A DNA stretch of 64,000 bases from Alphaproteobacteria bacterium (GTDB lineage Bacteria > Pseudomonadota > Alphaproteobacteria > Rhizobiales > Beijerinckiaceae). The translations under genes were made by a program, and so were the position numbers. The DNA is taken from NCBI GenBank assembly GCA_016869435.1, contig VGEB01000004.1, positions 1-64,000 of the forward strand, written 5' to 3'. Of the stretch, positions 28,985 through 40,253 are shown piece after piece. Numbering within the stretch: the stretch's first letter is position 1; each line of letters opens with the position of its first letter. The notes below the pieces were generated by a model. That model was not told the origin of the DNA. It saw only the letters and a list, made by a program, of their open reading frames with translations, and made no database searches.

Positions 28985-29446
28985 CTCGGCGTCTCCTCGA
29001 CAGGATTGCGCGCCTCTTCGTGCGCGCCTCCCGCCCGCTCATCGAACCATAAAACTGTCGTAGGCGTGATCGAAATCGTCACAGCCCCGACGCTTCATTC
29101 CGCCCTGACGCAGGTTCCGCAATGGCGGGCTGCGAATCCTCGCATCCTCAGCTCGCCGTTCCTAGCAAGGCAAGGGACGCGCCACCCTTGCGCGCCCTTT
29201 CATTCCTCTTAGGCGACGGCGTCCGGTCGAGCGCCGAGCACTTAGATGAAACAATGGCTTCCAAGAGCGAGCCCCGTTTTTAAGGTCAGCATGGCTGACT
29301 TATCTGCGGGGCTAACTTACTGCCAGATTTGCGCTGAAGTGACAAGCAGCCGCATGCGCTTTGGGCGCCTTCGCAGTCCAACGCTCGCCGTAATGTTGTC
29401 AGAGCATTCTTACCGTGGTCGAGAGGGCCTGAACAAGGAAAGATCA

Positions 29447-30400
29447 ATGCGGTCATTCGATTGGAAGGCGGGCCTGCCGTTTGCGTTGGCGCTGGCGGCG
29501 AACTCCGTGATTCCGCAGTACGCCTTCGCCCAATTTTACTTCCGGCCCTTCGCCTACAGTTACGGCTACCAATTTCCCGACGAGGGTCCGCCGGCCTATG
29601 CATCGCGTCCCGCCGTCGCTTCCATCCTCGGACGCGCCGGCTATCAACTGGTCGGGCCGCTAGGTCATCGGGGAGATCAGATCGTCGCGACCGGCGTCAG
29701 CCGTCGCGACGGCGAGATGCGCTTCATCGTCGATCCTTATGAGGGGCGGATATTGCGGGCAGTCCGGCTTGGGCCGCCACCGATGCATGGCGACGGACCG
29801 GAGCGCGGCGGTTACGGGCCGGGCGACGGGGCCCCTTATGGGCCGCACGGAGCCGGTCCGGGCTCGTCAGGTTCAGGACCAGCCGCGCGCGGCTTCGACG
29901 CTGAGCATTACCCGGAAACGGATGCGGCGCCCGGAGGCGCGACGTTAGACAACGCGCCCAATGGGACTATCCACCAGCGCGCATCGGCCGCGAAGCGTGG
30001 AACGTCTTCGAACGCTCCCCGCGAGATCGCGCCGCAAAAGCCTATGCCGCCAACGGCAGTTGCGCCAGCGTCGCCCCCCGCGTCGGCGTCGGCCGTGGCG
30101 TCCCCCGCGATGAATTCCAAGCCTGCGCCAGTGACGAACGCCTCGGCGCAGGGGTCTAGGCCAAGCGTCGAGGTCGTCGGGACGTCCCCTGAAAAACCCG
30201 CGACCTCAGCGGAACGAAGCGCGCCTGCACGGCGAGCCGCGGGCGCTCGCGCAGCCTCGTCGCGCCGGGCGATCGTGCCCCCGCATACGCCAAGCGAAAC
30301 CACGATCGTGAAGCCAGAGGCCTCGGCGCCGTCGGTTCCAGGCGCAAACGGCTCCGCGTCGGCGCCCGACGAGGTGGGAAAGCCGGAAGCCGGCGGTTAA
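29447..30400 (+). CDS. Exported hypothetical protein with low-complexity Ala/Pro/Ser tail
   Basis: Signal peptide, MRFIVDPYEGRILRAVRLGPP (PepSY-like sequence), long low-complexity C-terminus. Confidence 0.6.
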   Translation: MRSFDWKAGLPFALALAANSVIPQYAFAQFYFRPFAYSYGYQFPDEGPPAYASRPAVASILGRAGYQLVGPLGHRGDQIVATGVSRRDGEMRFIVDPYEGRILRAVRLGPPPMHGDGPERGGYGPGDGAPYGPHGAGPGSSGSGPAARGFDAEHYPETDAAPGGATLDNAPNGTIHQRASAAKRGTSSNAPREIAPQKPMPPTAVAPASPPASASAVASPAMNSKPAPVTNASAQGSRPSVEVVGTSPEKPATSAERSAPARRAAGARAASSRRAIVPPHTPSETTIVKPEASAPSVPGANGSASAPDEVGKPEAGG

Positions 30401-32440: not shown

Positions 32441-32839
32441 ATGATGACCGAGAACTCAGCAAAGACGCCGACCGCGAACGCGACATGGAAGTGCCTGCGC
32501 GCCCTTGTTGCTGCGACGCTTTTTGTTGTCTCGGCGCTGTTGCAGGCGACGCTCGCGCCGCACGCGGCTTTGTCCGCGACGCTGGCGTTCTGCGTAGACG
32601 ACCACGCGCCGGCGGATCGGGCGGACGAGAAGACGCCCGCAGGCGCGCCAGCGCTCGGTCACTCGCATTGCCGCGCCTGCCCGATCGCGACGCCGCCGTC
32701 CATTCCCGAAAAGCCGCCCATCGCGTGCGTCGCAGCGCCGCCAATCGCGCTCGTCTACTCCGACGGATGGGGTTTCGAACCGCAAGTGCGACGCCGTCCG
32801 GGCGAGACGCGGTCCCGTGCGCCTCCGTTCTTCTCCTGA
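32441..32839 (+). CDS. DUF2946-like small exported protein (module 1)
   Basis: Single N-terminal TM/signal, HSHCRACP (HCxxC), C-terminal RSRAPPFFS, directly upstream of a TonB receptor. Confidence 0.65.
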   Translation: MMTENSAKTPTANATWKCLRALVAATLFVVSALLQATLAPHAALSATLAFCVDDHAPADRADEKTPAGAPALGHSHCRACPIATPPSIPEKPPIACVAAPPIALVYSDGWGFEPQVRRRPGETRSRAPPFFS

Positions 32840-32899
32840 CGAAACAAAAACTCGCATTGTTTCAACCGCCCCTCGCTGGCGGATCAGGAGATCAGTTCC

Positions 32900-35335
32900 A
32901 TGCCCCCTACCGCTCTTCTGCGCGGCGTGAGCGCCTGCGCCCTCATTCTCGCGTCGCTCGCCGTCGCCAAGGCCCAAGTCTCTCTTCCGCAGATCGTGGT
33001 CGGCGCGCAACGCCCTGCCGCGGCGCCAACCACGCCGCCCTTGGAAAAGGCCGGCGACGAGGCTGTCGTCACACAAAGGGAAATCGTGGAGGAGAAACCT
33101 CCTGAAACGGATACAGCGAAGCTTCTCGAACATCAGCCTGGCGTGAGCGTTCAGACCGGCGGCGGCGTTTCCGGCCTGCCTGCAATTCGAGGCCTCGCCG
33201 ATGATCGCCTGAAGATACTCGTGGGCGGCGTGCAGACGACGGCCACCTGCGCCAATCACATGAATTCGCCGCTGAGCTATACCGATCCGAACACGATCGG
33301 CCGGGTTGAGGTGGTGACCGCGGTGTCGTCAGTGAGCAAAGGCGGCGATTCGATCGGCGGCTCAATCCTCGTCACCCCGAAATCGCCGGTCTTTGCGACT
33401 CCTGTGGTCGCTCCAGCAGTCATCGGTCCCGGCGGCGCGCCAGTTTCCCCAATCGTGGCCGCGAGTCCCTACCCCCCCGTTCCCTATCTTCCGCTTCCGG
33501 TTCCAGGCACGGTTCGTTTTGGCCCGAACAATGAGGTGCTGACGACGGGAACCGTCTCGGCGTTCTTCCGCGGCAATAATAATGGCGTCGGCGTAACAGC
33601 CAACATCAATATGGCTAACGACCATTGGAGCCTGCTCTACAACGGGTCCTGGCAACGTGCGACGAACTATCACGCCGGCGGCAATGGCGACAAAGTTCTC
33701 TCAACGAACTTCATGTCTGAGAACCACGCTGTCACGCTCGGCTATCAGAACGAAGGCCATCTCTTCACCTTCCGCGGCGCTTATCAGAACATTCCCTATC
33801 AGGGCTTTCCGAACCAGCGCATGGATATGACGCGGAATCGCTCCTATTCGCTCGACGCGTATTACAAGGGCGCCTACGAGTGGGGCACGCTGGAGGCGCG
33901 CGCCTATTGGCATCAGGTCTTCCACAAGATGGGATTCCTGGAAGACAGGTTCTGGCTCAATCACCCGATGATCGCGCTCGGCCGCGACTTCGGCTATTCC
34001 ATCAAGACGGAAATTCCATACAGCGAGCAGGATCTTTTCCGGATCGGCAATGAGTTCCACGGCTATCGTCTGCAGGACTACTGGCCGTCCGATCTCACCG
34101 GCTTTACCCAGGGGTTCGCGACGCCTCCCGGCAACTTGAGCCGGCCTTTCGCAAATGTGAACATCAATGGCGGCCAGCGCAATCGCTTCGGCACCTACGC
34201 CGAATGGGAGCGCCGCTGGACGACTCAGTGGTCGAGCCTGATCGGCGTGCGCAACGACGTCGTCTGGATGGACACAGGTCCCGGTCAGAGCTACACGCCG
34301 TTTATTTTTCCCACCACGCCGCTGATCGCGCGTGCGAACAACTTGGCCGTCAATATATTCAACGCGCAAAACCGGGCGCGCACCGACGTCAACTTCGACA
34401 TGACCGCTCTGGGGCGCTACGAACCGGAGCCCGGAACCCTTTACGAGTTCGGCTATTCGCGCAAGACGCGCTCGCCCAATCTCTATGAACGCTATACTTG
34501 GCCGATGGCGGGCCCGTTCACCGCGATGTTCAACTGGTTCGGCGACGGCAACGGCTACACTGGCAATCTCAATCTCAAGCCGGAAGTCGCGCACAATGTC
34601 GCATTCACCGGCGCGTGGCGCGACATGTCGGGCGCCAATAATTGGGAAGCGCGGATATCGCCCTTCTATACTTACGTTGAGAATTACATCGACGGCGCCA
34701 GAACCGGCGGGACCTTCAACACGTTCCCCGTGGCGAACTCCTATATTTTCCAGATCATGCAGTTCCGCAATTTCAAGGCGGAGCTGTATGGCGTCGACGG
34801 CTCGGGCAGAGTGAAGCTGCATGAGTCGCCGGAGTATGGCAGGCTGCAGGCGGTCGGCGTCGTCAGTTTCGTCTACGGACGAAATCTCGACATCGGCAAT
34901 CCGCAATATTGTCTGCCCGGCAATGGATTTTGCTCGGTCGCGTCCTTCCTGATCAAGAAAGGCGATGGTCTGTGGAACCTGATGCCGGCCAATGCGCGCA
35001 TCGCGCTTGAGCATCAGCTCGGCGGATTGAGCCTGGCCGCCGAAACGCAGCTTGTCGCGCCCAAGGACCATGTTTCCGCCAACAAGGGCGAATTCACCAC
35101 GCCTGCTTACGCGCTCCTCAATCTGCGCGCCGCCTATGAGTGGAGCAATATGCGGATCGACCTTGGCGTCGACAATCTCACCAATGCGCTCTACTCGCTG
35201 CCGCTTGGCGGATTCGATCTGACGAACTATTCCCGCAACGCGTTCGTCTTCGGACGAAATGTCGGCCTTGCGAGCGTGCGTCAGGTGCCTGGAATGGGCC
35301 GCAACTTTTACGCGGGCCTCACGGTGAAGTTCTGA
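32900..35335 (+). CDS. TonB-dependent receptor, OprC/NosA-like, putative copper receptor (module 1)
   Basis: Signal peptide, plug motifs (KLLEHQPGVSVQTGGGVSGLPAIRGLADDRLKILVGG), C-terminal beta-barrel ending GRNFYAGLTVKF; CANHM (CxxxM) and HKM (HxM). Confidence 0.9.
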   Translation: MPPTALLRGVSACALILASLAVAKAQVSLPQIVVGAQRPAAAPTTPPLEKAGDEAVVTQREIVEEKPPETDTAKLLEHQPGVSVQTGGGVSGLPAIRGLADDRLKILVGGVQTTATCANHMNSPLSYTDPNTIGRVEVVTAVSSVSKGGDSIGGSILVTPKSPVFATPVVAPAVIGPGGAPVSPIVAASPYPPVPYLPLPVPGTVRFGPNNEVLTTGTVSAFFRGNNNGVGVTANINMANDHWSLLYNGSWQRATNYHAGGNGDKVLSTNFMSENHAVTLGYQNEGHLFTFRGAYQNIPYQGFPNQRMDMTRNRSYSLDAYYKGAYEWGTLEARAYWHQVFHKMGFLEDRFWLNHPMIALGRDFGYSIKTEIPYSEQDLFRIGNEFHGYRLQDYWPSDLTGFTQGFATPPGNLSRPFANVNINGGQRNRFGTYAEWERRWTTQWSSLIGVRNDVVWMDTGPGQSYTPFIFPTTPLIARANNLAVNIFNAQNRARTDVNFDMTALGRYEPEPGTLYEFGYSRKTRSPNLYERYTWPMAGPFTAMFNWFGDGNGYTGNLNLKPEVAHNVAFTGAWRDMSGANNWEARISPFYTYVENYIDGARTGGTFNTFPVANSYIFQIMQFRNFKAELYGVDGSGRVKLHESPEYGRLQAVGVVSFVYGRNLDIGNPQYCLPGNGFCSVASFLIKKGDGLWNLMPANARIALEHQLGGLSLAAETQLVAPKDHVSANKGEFTTPAYALLNLRAAYEWSNMRIDLGVDNLTNALYSLPLGGFDLTNYSRNAFVFGRNVGLASVRQVPGMGRNFYAGLTVKF

Positions 35336-35478
35336 TCGCGGCGCGCTAATGTGGAAGGCGGCGCGCCAATGCGCCGCCTCTCATTCTGATGTTCCGATTC
35401 TGCTGCGTCTCGCGCCTGTCGGTTTGCGCCGCGCGCTCGCCGCTTCTCTTCGATGCACGCGCGCGGTGGCGCCATTAT

Positions 35479-35494
35479 GTTGCTCAATTGCAAC
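35479..35494. promoter_or_regulatory. Palindrome GTTGCTCAATTGCAAC upstream of copper-uptake module 2
   Basis: Same GTTGC-N6-GCAAC architecture, about 97 nt upstream of the 35592 ATG. Confidence 0.6.
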
Positions 35495-35591
35495 AAATCC
35501 AATAATTTGCTCAAGAACTGGGCGAGCTCACTTCCGATATCAAAAAAAGATAGTAACAAGTTCGTTACACGGAATTGGATTCTCCAGCGCC

Positions 35592-35972
35592 ATGTCAGCG
35601 AAAGCAGAACGGAAAGACTGCAAGCGAAGCGGCGCCCGCGCTGTCCTCGCATTGGCGCTTTTCTGCCTTTCCGCCGCGTTGCAGGCGACGATCGCGCCGC
35701 GCATGGCGTTCGCGGCGTCAGATGAATTCTGCGTCGATAACGTCGGCGCCGCCGATCCGCAGCCCCCGAGTCAATCGCCGACGCACGCCTCGGACGCGCA
35801 TTGCAGTGTTTGCACGACCGCGGCCGCGCCCATCATCCTCGGTAGACTACCGGTCGCGCGCCTTGAGCGATGGTCGACTGCGCTGGTCTACCTCGACACA
35901 TGGCCTAGCGAAGCGCGAGAACGACGCCGTTCCGGCGAAGCGCGCTCACGCGCGCCCCCCTTTCTCTCCTGA
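35592..35972 (+). CDS. DUF2946-like small exported protein (module 2)
   Basis: N-terminal hydrophobic segment, DAHCSVCTTA (HCxxC), C-terminal RSRAPPFLS; paralog of 32441..32839. Confidence 0.65.
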   Translation: MSAKAERKDCKRSGARAVLALALFCLSAALQATIAPRMAFAASDEFCVDNVGAADPQPPSQSPTHASDAHCSVCTTAAAPIILGRLPVARLERWSTALVYLDTWPSEARERRRSGEARSRAPPFLS

Positions 35973-37437
35973 CGAAACAAGAACTCGCGCTGTTTCAACC
36001 GCCGCTCGCCGCGGTTCAGGAGATCTCATACAATGCAACATACCGCTCTACTGCGCGGCGCAAGCGCCTGCGCGCTGGTTCTCGCGTCGCTCGCAAGCGC
36101 CGAGGCCCAGGTCGCTCTCCCCCAGATCGTCATAGGCGCGCCGCATCGCCCTGCGGCGCCGACCGCGCCGCCACCGACTCCGCCCACGCCGGAAAAGGCC
36201 GGCGACGCGGCCGTGGTCACGCAAAAGGAAATCGACAAGGAAAGGCCCGCTGTCGCCGACACGACGAAGCTCCTCGAAAACACCCCCGGCGTCAGTATGT
36301 ACGAGGCCGGCGGCGTTTCGCGCCTGCCGGCGATTCACGGCATGGCCGACGATCGGCTAAAAATCATCGTGGGCGGCGTGCAGCCGACCGCAGCGTGCGC
36401 CAACCACATGAATCCCCCGCTCTCCTATATTGATCCCAATAACGTGCAGAGAATCGAAGTCTTTTCGGGCGTGATGCCCGTCAGCAGAGGCGGCGATTCG
36501 ATCGGCGGTTCGATCATCGTGACGCCGCGACAGCCCGCCTTCGCGCCGCCCCCAGGCGCGCCGCTGCCGCCGCCCGCCGTGGCGCCGGTTGAACCATTCC
36601 TGCTCGGCTCGCCATACCCGCCGTTCCTGCCCTTTACCGGTCAGGGCTTGCGCTTCGGCAATCAGAACGAGTTGCTTGCGACCGGCGTCGTCTCGGCCTT
36701 CTTCCGTACAAACAATAACGGCATCAGCGTTTCCGGCACGACGAATGTCGCGACCGACCATTGGAGCGTGCTCTACAACGGCGCCTGGTCTCGCGCGACC
36801 GACTATCATCAGGGCGACAACGGACCGAAAGTGCTGTCAACAAATTTTATTTCGGAACAGCACTCGCTCACCGGCGCGTATCAGAATAACGGGCATCTCT
36901 TCACGATCAGGGGCGCTGTAGAGCATATCCCCTATCAGGGATTTCCCAATCAACGCATGGATATGACGGGCAATCGCGGCTACACCGCGGAAGCCAAGTA
37001 TCTGGGAGCCTACGACTGGGGCCTCGTGGACGCGCGCGCCTTTTGGCATCACGTCACCCATACGATGGGCTTCCTCTACGACAAGCAGCCAGCGAACATG
37101 CCGATGAACACCATCGCGCATGATTTCGGCTACTCAATCAAGACTGAGATTCCCTTCACCCAGCTCTCCGGTCACGACTTGTTGCGGCTTGGCAGCGAGT
37201 ACCACGGTTTTCGCCTCAAGGACTGGTGGGAGCCGGTGTACAGCTCGACCATGATGATGATGGGCCCGTTCACCTACTGGAACATCAATAACGGCGACCG
37301 TAATCACGTGGGCCACTATGCGGAGTGGGAGGCCGCTTGGACGCCGCAATGGTCGACGCTTCTCGGCGTGCGCAATGACGTCGTGTGGATGACGACAGGC
37401 AACGCCTATCCTTACGATCCGCGCAGCTCCATTCCAA

Positions 37438-37510
37438 TGGGCATGATGGGCGGCATGGGCGGCGGCATGGGCGGCGGCATGGGCGGCATGGGGATGATGA
37501 TGTACATGGC
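37438..37510 (+). repeat. ATGGGCGGC-type tandem repeat encoding a Met/Gly-rich segment
   Basis: ggcatgatgggcggcatgggcggcggcatgggcggcggcatgggcggcatggggatgatgatg, encoding MGMMGGMGGGMGGGMGGMGMMMYM. Confidence 0.9.
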
Positions 37511-37851
37511 GAACCCCGATGCGACTGCCGCGCAAATCTTCAATGCTCGCAATCACGCCCGCACGGACGTAAATTTTGACATGGTTGCAAGGGCCCGTTA
37601 CCAACCTGACGCCGTCAGCACGTACGAGGTCGGCTATTCGCGCAAGACCCGCTCGCCCAATCTTTATGAGCGGTACGCGTGGGGCGTCGGATCGATGGCG
37701 ACCGCCATGGTCAATTGGTTCGGCGACCTCAACGGCTACACAGGCAATCTCGACCTGAAGCCGGAAGTTGCGCACACGGTTGGCATTGTCGGCTCTTGGA
37801 TCGATCCTGCGGGAAATTGGGAAGCCAGAGTCAATCCGTATTACAGCTATA

Positions 37852-38989
37852 CCCCGACTCATTGGAAAGGCGAAGAAATCGGTTGCCGGCGGGCGGATAA
37901 TGGATTCGTCTAAAGGGCATGATTCGTTCTGGCTATCTTTCGCCCGAGGATCGCGCCGACCTGATCGCCCTTGTGCGTGACGGCTCTGCGGCGCATCGCT
38001 TGGCGCGCCGCGCCAATGCTCTCGTGCTGCTGGATGACGGTTGGAGCTGCGAGCAGGTCGCCGCGGCGCTGTTTGTCGACGATGACACAGTCCGGCGCTG
38101 GCATGCATTGTTTTTGGAGGATGGGCTCGAAGGCTTAACGCGCTTTGATAGCGGCGGCGGCGCCTCGCGCTTGTCGAAGATGCAGGAAGCGGCGCTGACG
38201 TCCTGGATATCTGAAAGCTTACCTCCTTCGACGCGTCAGATTGGCGCGTATATCGAGAAGGAATGCGGTGTCGTTTACGAGAGCCGCTCCGGCCTCATCG
38301 CTCTCCTGCATCGGCTTGGGCTCGAATACAGGAAGCCGGAAGCGATCGGACGCAAGCCTGATGCGGAAAAGCAGAAAGCCTTCATCGAAGCCTACGAGAA
38401 TCTTCTGAACGCGCTTGGCCCTGACGAGGCCGTGATGTTCATGGACGCCGTGCATCCGACGCATGCGACGCGTCCCGCCGGTTGCTGGGCGCCGGCCAAG
38501 GAAAATCTGGCCATTGAGCAAACCAGCGGGCGGCAACGTCTTAATGTTCATGGCGCGATCGACCTCGAGACTGGCAAGACCAGAATGGTCGACGTCGAAA
38601 CCGTCGACGCGGTGTCAACGATCAGGCTTCTGCAAGCGATCGAGTCGATGTATCCGCTGATGGCAATGATCCATGTCTTCCTGGACAATGCACGCTATCA
38701 CCATGCCGTTCTGGTGCAAGAGTGGTTGGCGGAGCCGGGCAGACGCATCAAGTTGCACTTCATTCCCGCTTATTGCCCGCATTTGAACCCGATTGAGCGG
38801 CTATGGGGTGTCATGCACAAGCATCTGACGCACAACAAATGCTACGCCACATACAGGGAGTTCGCCGAAGCGACATTGGGATTTCTACGTGAAACCGTTC
38901 CAATCCGCTGGTTCGAGTTTCGCGATTCCGTCACCGACAACTTCCGCGTCATCGATCCGAAGGATTTTCGGGTTCTGACGTGAACTGGG
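37852..38989 (+). mobile_element. IS630-family insertion element (approximate ends)
   Basis: Surrounds the 37919..38983 transposase; ends CCCCGACTC.../...ACTGGG flanked by TA on both sides; terminal inverted repeats are weak, so ends are provisional. Confidence 0.65.
37919..38983 (+). CDS. IS630-family transposase (DDE)
   Basis: N-terminal HTH (GWSCEQVAAALFVDDDTVRRWHALF), FMDAVHPTH, VFLDNARYHHA, HFIPAYCPHLNPIERLWGVMHK. Confidence 0.93.
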   Translation: MIRSGYLSPEDRADLIALVRDGSAAHRLARRANALVLLDDGWSCEQVAAALFVDDDTVRRWHALFLEDGLEGLTRFDSGGGASRLSKMQEAALTSWISESLPPSTRQIGAYIEKECGVVYESRSGLIALLHRLGLEYRKPEAIGRKPDAEKQKAFIEAYENLLNALGPDEAVMFMDAVHPTHATRPAGCWAPAKENLAIEQTSGRQRLNVHGAIDLETGKTRMVDVETVDAVSTIRLLQAIESMYPLMAMIHVFLDNARYHHAVLVQEWLAEPGRRIKLHFIPAYCPHLNPIERLWGVMHKHLTHNKCYATYREFAEATLGFLRETVPIRWFEFRDSVTDNFRVIDPKDFRVLT

Positions 38990-39680
38990 TATACATCGAA
39001 AATTTCATAGACGCTGATCGCGTGAGCAATCTCTCGGGACCGGCTGGACTCATCTTTCCCATACTACAGTTCCGCAACCATAAAGCGGAAATCTACGGCT
39101 TCGACGTTTCCGGCCGCCTGAAGCTTTGGGAAACGCCAGAATACGGTCTGTTTTCCACCACTGGCTTTATCAGCTACGTCTATGGCAAGGACCTCGACAT
39201 GCCCAATTACACGGCCTGCGGTCTGTCCGGCGCCACATGCTATCTGCTGGCGCAGAACTTCGCCAAGGGAGACGGGCTGTATCATATCATGCCATTGACC
39301 GCGCGCGGCGCCATCGAACACCGTTTGGGCGGATGGACGAGCGCCGTCGAGTTGCAGCTGGTCGACAGCAAGACGCATGTTTCCGTCGCCCGCAACGAAT
39401 TGAAGACGGGCGGGTATGCGCTGGTCAATTTGAGAACCGCCTACGACTGGGGAACGATGCGCTTCGATCTCGCGATCGAAAACCTGTTCGACCAGCTCTA
39501 CTATCCACCCCTCGGTGGCCATTATTTCACTTTGGCGAAGGTCACCAACAATCCACTCACCTACGGGCCGGTGCCGGGGATCGGCCGCAACTTTATCGCC
39601 GGCCTTACGGTTCGGTTTTGACCGCACGCCGCTTCCAGGAGAGACGCGTATGCGCGTCTCTCCTCATTGGAGAGTGTTTT

Positions 39681-40253
39681 GTGAAACGTCTCTTCGTTCC
39701 CTTGGCGCTATCGGCGCTTTGCGCCGTACTCGCCTCGGCGCAAGCCGAAATCATCGGCGCGCAAACGCCTCGCACGGCGACGGAGGACCAAATGAAGGCC
39801 TCCCTGCGCGAGATCGACCTCGTTGGCGCGAATGGCGCGGCTCTCGACTTGCGTGCGCTGATGGCGAGCGGACGACCGACGCTCATCAGCCTTTGGGCCT
39901 ATTGGTGCCCGAATTGTCTCGCCGAAATGAAAGGCTTCAAGGCGATCGCCGCGGCCTGCCCGGATCGCTGGAACATCGTCTTCGTCTCGGCGCGCGCCAG
40001 CGACTACGCCAAGGACGCCGCGAAGTTCAAGACTTACGGTCTACCCTGGAAGATCTTCCGCGTCGGCGACTCAACGAAAACCGACGTGGCGAAAGCAAAA
40101 AGCGCGCGCGCCTTCTACGGCGCGACGGCCGGCGGCGACGTGGTCACGCCACTTCACTATCTGGTCGGCGCTTCCGGACGGGTCGACGCAATCGTCAACG
40201 GCAAGCTGAACTTCGAGGAGCCCCAACGCCTAGCCGCCTTCTGCGCCGACTGA
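39681..40253 (+). CDS. TlpA-like thioredoxin-fold exported protein
   Basis: GTG start at 39681; signal peptide; TLISLWAYWCPNCLAEMKGF (WCxxC). Confidence 0.8.
   Translation: MKRLFVPLALSALCAVLASAQAEIIGAQTPRTATEDQMKASLREIDLVGANGAALDLRALMASGRPTLISLWAYWCPNCLAEMKGFKAIAAACPDRWNIVFVSARASDYAKDAAKFKTYGLPWKIFRVGDSTKTDVAKAKSARAFYGATAGGDVVTPLHYLVGASGRVDAIVNGKLNFEEPQRLAAFCAD

Follow-up and report, generated by a model that had tools for sequence, protein, structure and literature searches.

A predicted OprC-like copper receptor of a Methylocystis-like methanotroph is preceded by a CruR-type uORF whose end is complementary to the SD region of the receptor gene

Receptor 1, a TonB-dependent receptor encoded in the 64,000-nucleotide stretch of DNA analysed here (the window), is probably a copper importer whose production is set by a CruR-type uORF acting as a switch that is repressed by copper; by analogy with characterized systems, we put the probability of this reading at about 0.72. 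It is built on direct observations, namely the copper-site motif and its conservation, the relation of the receptor to OprC, a uORF with CxxC, the expected spacing and RAPP, and a gene-pair-specific complementarity between the end of the uORF and the SD of the receptor. The host genome is Methylocystis-like, and receptor 1, which reaches a Pfam Plug score of 60 bits, is 96% identical to the receptor of a lake MAG and 93-94% identical to those of Methylocystis rosea and others. The relevant features of its gene are as follows.

32900-35335, plus strand: receptor 1, intact TonB-dependent receptor of 811 aa with a predicted OprC-like copper site
33248-33262, plus strand: CANHM of the plug with C117 (codon 33248-33250) and M121 (codon 33260-33262), aligned to OprC Cys143 and Met147
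33821-33823, plus strand: M308, aligned to OprC Met286 (methionine track)
33923-33931, plus strand: HKM of the barrel with H342 (codon 33923-33925) and M344 (codon 33929-33931), aligned to OprC His323 and Met325
33968-33970, plus strand: M357, aligned to OprC Met343 (methionine track)

The original prediction had read a CxxxM motif in the plug and an HxM motif in the barrel of this receptor as the copper-site signature of OprC, and all four residues lie at the coordinates it had given. In the OprC crystal, Cys143, Met147, His323 and Met325 are described as the copper ligands in the accessible text of the study (PMC8610252), and it is onto these four that the residues of receptor 1 are placed by a profile alignment. 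When the profile of 12 relatives was compared with all PDB chains, OprC was retrieved first with 85.7 bits, the heme receptor PhuR reaching 37.5 bits; the HxM segment is weak in this alignment (8.1 bits), but the register is the same in a separate alignment over the full length. Each of the four residues is present in 81 of 81 rows of an alignment of relatives, titled as Proteobacteria or Chlorobi, and lies in one of its 45 invariant columns. The relatives were fetched by the patterns CANHMN[PS]P or FGD..N.Y.G, which biases the plug motif, HxM being part of neither pattern; in 21 of the 81 rows the first pattern is absent, and C and M are kept all the same. Since the four residues are invariant in this alignment, including the rows outside the fetch pattern, the motif is confirmed, at the level of sequence, to be real and more than chance, and its reading as the copper-site signature of OprC is supported by the aligned ligands. 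A separate alignment, from which four badly extracted rows (L152, L157, L164 and L168) had been dropped beforehand, has C/M/H/M in the four columns of 23/23 members of the receptor family and 16/16 OprC sequences, compared with 0/10 heme receptors and 0/6 B12 receptors. Furthermore, M308 and M357 are invariant (81/81 each) and align with OprC Met286 and Met343, which act as silver ligands in a methionine track according to the same accessible text (PMC8610252). Residue 355, aligned with OprC Met341, is M in 72 of the 81 relatives and H in 9, and it is H in receptor 1. The motif was also said to recur in a second receptor of the window, and CANHM (36396-36410) and HTM (37059-37067) are indeed found there; receptor 2, which is 61% identical to receptor 1 where the two align, is itself split after the motif.

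A superposition of a structural model on OprC had been proposed as a check, and in the predicted structure OprC is the closest fold of receptor 1. The AlphaFold2 model, computed from 81 sequences, has a mean pLDDT of 82.0 and a pTM of 0.83 and supersedes a poor earlier model from 12 sequences (mean pLDDT 61.7). The best 28 rows of a Foldseek search with this model are all OprC chains; with VIA-align, OprC reaches a Z of 37.2 (2.2 A over 600 residues), followed by ZnuD with 34.2 and heme receptors near 32. Identity between receptor 1 and OprC across the structural alignment is 19-20%. On receptor 1, the curated OprC/NosA model TIGR01778 scores 70.9 bits against a cut-off of 472.45, and the heme-receptor models TIGR01786 (105.4 bits) and TIGR01785 (97.2 bits), score higher over the whole protein but stay far below their own cut-offs; a search with TIGR01778 of the host genome and of one further genome of the genus (G009) gave no match in either. 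In a tree of 59 rows, the receptor family and OprC each form one clade (100/100), and the two are sisters (joint node 90/78); the tree includes L152, L157, L164 and L168, whose very long branches or odd composition probably reflect extraction in the wrong frame, while L120, which was wrongly extracted too, is absent from it. By sequence, receptor 1 thus belongs to a sister clade of OprC, outside OprC/NosA as the curated model defines it: it would be OprC-like in its working without being an OprC/NosA member. With OprC/NosA (TIGR01778; PMC8610252) it shares the four aligned copper ligands, the two track methionines and the fold, and some oprC genes are also preceded by a cruR-type uORF; the plug motif, however, is mostly CxNHMN[PS]P in the family of receptor 1 and mostly CxxRMD[AP]P in OprC. 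CrtA/BfrG (PMC12914433) is likewise a TonB receptor encoded behind a cruR gene. However, CrtA has no conserved Cys/Met and its gene is usually followed by PepSY_TM, whereas C117, M121 and M344 are invariant in the family of receptor 1 and a redoxin and a hydrolase are encoded downstream, so that receptor 1 has neither mark of a CrtA.

Both receptor genes are preceded by a uORF of the DUF2946/CruR type, and the following elements were located in the two leaders.

32441-32839, plus strand: cruR1, DUF2946/CruR-type uORF of 132 aa, with its start at 32441 or 32444
32669-32680, plus strand: CxxC (CRAC) of cruR1, the expected copper-sensing motif by analogy with Bp2923
32816-32827, plus strand: RAPP arrest motif of cruR1, three residues ahead of the stop
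32832-32839, plus strand: anti-SD arm TCTCCTGA, formed by the last codons and the stop of cruR1
32841-32863, plus strand: hairpin GAAACAA/TTGTTTC between the arms, present in part of Methylocystis
32866-32882, plus strand: hairpin CCGCC/GGCGG between the arms
32884-32891, plus strand: SD arm TCAGGAGA of receptor 1, perfect complement of 32832-32839
35592-35972, plus strand: cruR2, DUF2946/CruR-type uORF of 126 aa
35802-35813 and 35949-35960, plus strand: CxxC and RAPP of cruR2
35965-35972, plus strand: anti-SD arm TCTCCTGA at the end of cruR2
36016-36023, plus strand: SD arm TCAGGAGA of receptor 2

The Pfam DUF2946 model scores 24.3 bits on cruR2, above its cut-off of 23.7, and 19.2 bits on cruR1, below it. 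Both uORFs consist of a signal-like start, CxxC, exactly 45 residues, RAPP and exactly three further residues, and each of them stands directly before a receptor, with a gap of 60 nt in both cases; this is the place of a CruR, the first gene before copper genes. By sequence, the CruR-type uORFs before both receptor genes point to copper independently of the motif. The genus was searched for this layout (61 genomes, 28 with a receptor match): of the 30 receptor loci obtained, 26 have an upstream uORF in which 45-47 residues separate CxxC from RAPP. A wider search found a uORF with the two motifs 44-48 residues apart at 37 of 80 loci, including one with a broken receptor ORF (L045), and the loci titled as Beta- or Gammaproteobacteria or Chlorobi mostly lack a CruR-type uORF.

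The last 8 nt of both uORFs (TCTCCTGA) are the exact complement of the SD region of the receptor gene that follows (TCAGGAGA), and the minimum-energy folds of both window leaders contain this SD helix, closed around the hairpins. The fold energies are mildly better than those of shuffled sequences for the two window leaders (z -1.4 and -1.5), the value for L020 being +0.2. In Rhodoblastus and others, the letters of the arms differ yet still match, for instance CGCAAGCTGA with TCAGCTTGTG in L055. The complementarity was compared between own and swapped partners. For 28 loci of the family, which are representatives picked from 45 leaders and of which some come from one genus (Rhodoblastus), own pairs score 6.63 and swapped pairs 5.20 +/- 0.23, a difference reached in 0 of 20000 permutations; for the 18 of these loci outside Methylocystis and Methylosinus, the values are 5.78 and 4.66 +/- 0.27 (3 of 20000 permutations). 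A search with DUF2946 alone yielded 57 loci, 20 without a CxxC..R[AG]PP uORF, 2 without a usable start and 35 that were used; the 33 distinct ones score 6.00 compared with 4.56 +/- 0.17 (0 of 20000 permutations). At nine OprC loci, some of which recur in the DUF2946 set, own pairs score 5.97 and off-diagonal pairs 4.39, without a permutation test.

For a positional scan, 24 of the 28 family loci and the 35 DUF2946 loci were combined and only distinct sequences kept (that of L196 equals that of L104), which gave 56 uORFs; L051, L056, L074 and L078 were left out for being of the same genus as another locus or for a doubtful start codon. The signal is strongest where the 5' window ends 2 nt past the stop (z 10.6) and where the 3' window ends 4-8 nt ahead of the start codon (z 9.3-9.7), and it disappears when the 5' window lies 46-60 nt upstream or the 3' window past the start codon. 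No such signal is seen in ordinary neighbouring gene pairs (525 in all): 250 of them drawn together give z 1.4, and 30 samples of 56 give z 0.42 +/- 1.05. Start codons were picked by their SD score, which favours SD-like sequence, equally so in swapped partners and control pairs. Among the sequences compared, the complementarity between uORF and SD is thus gene-pair specific, with a z of about 10 against swapped partners. Covariation within Methylocystis is weak because the SD helix is mostly unvaried in the genus, and the case for the pairing therefore rests on the swap tests: 2 of 10 SD-helix pairs have changed on both sides, a value that does not stand out (86 of 500 shuffles reach it), and the percentage paired and the covariation score exceed those of all 500 shuffles.

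Exactly three residues follow R[AG]PP in 33 of the 56 uORFs, and a helix scoring at least 6 is found in 37 of the 56 (none in the other 19). If the leading edge of the ribosome is assumed to lie 16 nt from the P site, half or more of the uORF arm would be covered, at 32 of these 37 loci, by a ribosome stalled with the first proline in its P site. When the 16 nt counted from the expected P site are masked, the predicted openness of the SD increases for 35 of the 56 uORFs and decreases for 4; for the two window leaders, it rises from 0.27 to 0.51 and from 0.41 to 0.70. The gain is larger with own than with swapped tails (0.13 vs 0.04, p 0.0016).

From these elements, a mechanism can be proposed. 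That copper is bound and transported, that the ribosome arrests and which way the switch works are drawn from the literature on OprC, CruR and CutF. In a Methylocystis-like methanotroph, receptor 1 would mediate the TonB-dependent import of copper ions or of copper that is weakly held. Copper, probably guided to the site by the methionines equivalent to the OprC track, would be held between the plug (C117, M121) and the barrel wall (H342, M344) and released into the periplasm by the work of TonB. At low copper, a ribosome that reaches RAPP near the C-terminus of CruR would stall there and cover the last codons, so that TCTCCTGA would be barred from pairing with the SD TCAGGAGA and the receptor would be made. 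Copper bound to the nascent CxxC would relieve the stall, the ribosome would leave, the end of the uORF would pair with the SD and the receptor would be shut off; Rho may act in addition. On a broader scale, we consider it somewhat probable that CruR/DUF2946 arrest peptides in general are self-contained translational copper switches, in which an anti-SD in the last codons and the stop matches the next gene and is hidden by the stalled ribosome, so that arrest site and RNA switch overlap; in methanotrophs, such a switch would run a sister clade of OprC as a would-be methanobactin-independent copper route.

Two characterized arrest peptides resemble the window uORFs. CruR of Bordetella pertussis (PMC9426467) has the same 45 residues between CxxC and RAPP, three residues after RAPP and the same place before a TonB receptor. 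Arrest at its RAPP was demonstrated in vitro, the two prolines occupying the P and A sites, according to the accessible text of a second study (PMC12992588). The gap to the receptor gene is 162 nt in B. pertussis, which the authors call incompatible with translational coupling in the accessible text (PMC9426467), compared with 60 nt in the window; moreover, the end of the uORF would pair with the SD of the receptor in the window, whereas the mechanism given in the part of the CruR report at hand is Rho-dependent termination, SD pairing not being described there. CutF, encoded before CutO in Rhodobacter capsulatus (PMC9973294), is likewise a DUF2946-like arrest peptide, and a downstream stem-loop shields the next SD. 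According to the available text, however, CutF carries CxxxC and copper promotes stalling and turns the oxidase on, whereas the window uORFs carry CxxC and copper is expected to turn the importer off; and the anti-SD of CutF lies within the intergenic stem-loop, whereas in the window it would be formed by the last codons and the stop of the uORF itself. Regarding generality, what the authors of the CutF study compare, in the text available, is gap lengths and signal sequences (PMC9973294).

Other explanations share part of this evidence. The receptor could be a copper receptor while CruR acts by Rho-dependent termination alone, the pairing between uORF and SD being a by-product or an element of mRNA stability. 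Rho-dependent termination and a rut site have been reported for B. pertussis cruR-bfrG in the text accessible (PMC9426467); however, the window gap is 60 nt rather than 162, and the complementarity is pair-specific, peaks at the uORF end and the SD and is absent from ordinary gene pairs, which makes termination as the sole mode unlikely. A slightly smaller chance is given to the import of a copper chelate, be it a chalkophore such as methanobactin or a small-molecule copper complex, with the four residues stripping the metal from its ligand. B. pertussis CrtA imports chelated copper, as far as the accessible text goes (PMC12914433), and MbnC matches are present in 22 of 39 genomes of the genus, including the host. 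By alignment, however, the site corresponds to the buried ion site of OprC and is invariant in many non-methanotroph lineages as well; in addition, 7 of the 28 receptor-positive genomes (G009, G010, G020, G024, G025, G028 and G031) have no MbnC match, and that of G026 lies under the cut-off. The MbnC gene of the host is found on another contig (C66, 12870-13415), so that receptor 1 lies outside the methanobactin operon, the setting that would mark it as an MbnT; no MbnT was found among the long ORFs listed for the mbn loci of the host genome and of G005 (L170, L171).

A very improbable reading is that heme, or some other iron or zinc ligand, is the cargo of the receptor, with a structural role for the C/M/H/M set. 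The full-length scores of the heme-receptor models above TIGR01778 and the second place of ZnuD among the folds would fit such a ligand, but the four residues are missing from all ten heme and all six B12 rows, a putative copper-sensing uORF lies upstream, and OprC ranks best in both sequence and fold. An importer of copper ions or weakly held copper under a copper-repressed uORF switch is therefore the reading preferred here.

The choice of methane-oxidising enzyme in methanotrophs is governed by copper, and the copper uptake route that has been studied in these bacteria is that via methanobactin receptors, according to the accessible text of PMC9601215. The receptor clade with the complete OprC site, members of which occur in records titled Methylocystis, Methylosinus, Methylobacter and Methylophaga, among many other names, is a direct candidate for a further copper uptake route. 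PF02461, the model for subunit A of pMMO, has no match in the host genome, which is rated 99.9% complete, and is present in 31 of 39 genomes of the genus; its absence is likely a gap in the 209-contig assembly rather than biology. A pair-specific anti-SD at the end of CruR-type uORFs would offer a simple, testable mechanism for widespread copper-sensing leader peptides, a class within which the published modes differ in the available texts, with Rho termination for CruR and an SD stem-loop for CutF. In the main texts of the open-access literature that was searched, we found neither SD pairing by CruR uORFs, nor an anti-SD within the end of the uORF as a general trait of the class, nor a description of the receptor clade. 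The copper site, the sister-clade status and the switch are all open to single-residue and silent-codon tests.

Downstream of receptor 1, a second module and the gene that follows it occupy these positions.

36033-37849, plus strand: receptor 2, 5' part, with CANHM and HTM
37437-37508, plus strand: methionine/glycine-rich loop of receptor 2
37850-38991, plus strand: insertion element of 1142 bp that splits receptor 2, with a transposase (37919-38983) carrying DDE_3; presumably of the IS630 type
38992-39621, plus strand: receptor 2, 3' part (end of the barrel)
39681-40253, plus strand: TlpA-like redoxin containing WCPNC, the gene that comes next in the order of Methylocystis (Redoxin 24.5 bits, cut-off 26.6)

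The element, which we assign to the IS630 family on account of its DDE_3 transposase and TA duplication, is flanked by TA at 37848-37849 and 38992-38993, and the ORF of receptor 2 (36033-37913, 626 aa) extends into it. Judged by its sequence, receptor 2 is no working copy as it stands, and the insertion looks like the loss of one among two tandem modules. Methionine makes up 4.6% of its ORF (29 residues) compared with 2.1% of receptor 1, and the Met/Gly-rich loop, which is possibly an extended methionine track, is found only in receptor 2. The window thus has two cruR-receptor modules (32441-39621), whereas relatives have one at the same site; this is of the second type in L172 and of the first type in L034, which means that two old types share one site. 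By tblastn, a redoxin is encoded after the receptor at 11 of the 15 loci L034-L048 (no match at L037, L042, L044 and L045), and the Methylocystis gene order of luxR, cruR, receptor, redoxin and hydrolase is largely kept.

Several observations were made alongside. A viral scan retrieved no relative. A Pro/Ala-rich ORF of 384 aa (29246-30400) lies upstream of an HSP20 gene and has no Pfam match at E 0.05. The genus also contains another receptor group (L029-L031) that has CANHM, with RHIMDF in L029 and L031, and an N-terminal extension resembling an STN signalling domain; the upstream stretch examined contains no uORF at these loci. In a Methylocystis MAG (G016; L019, L045), the orthologue of receptor 1 is interrupted close to the plug by a TGA and a broken reading frame, and the uORF is intact. 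Two more DUF2946 matches are present in the host genome, on contigs C147 and C132.
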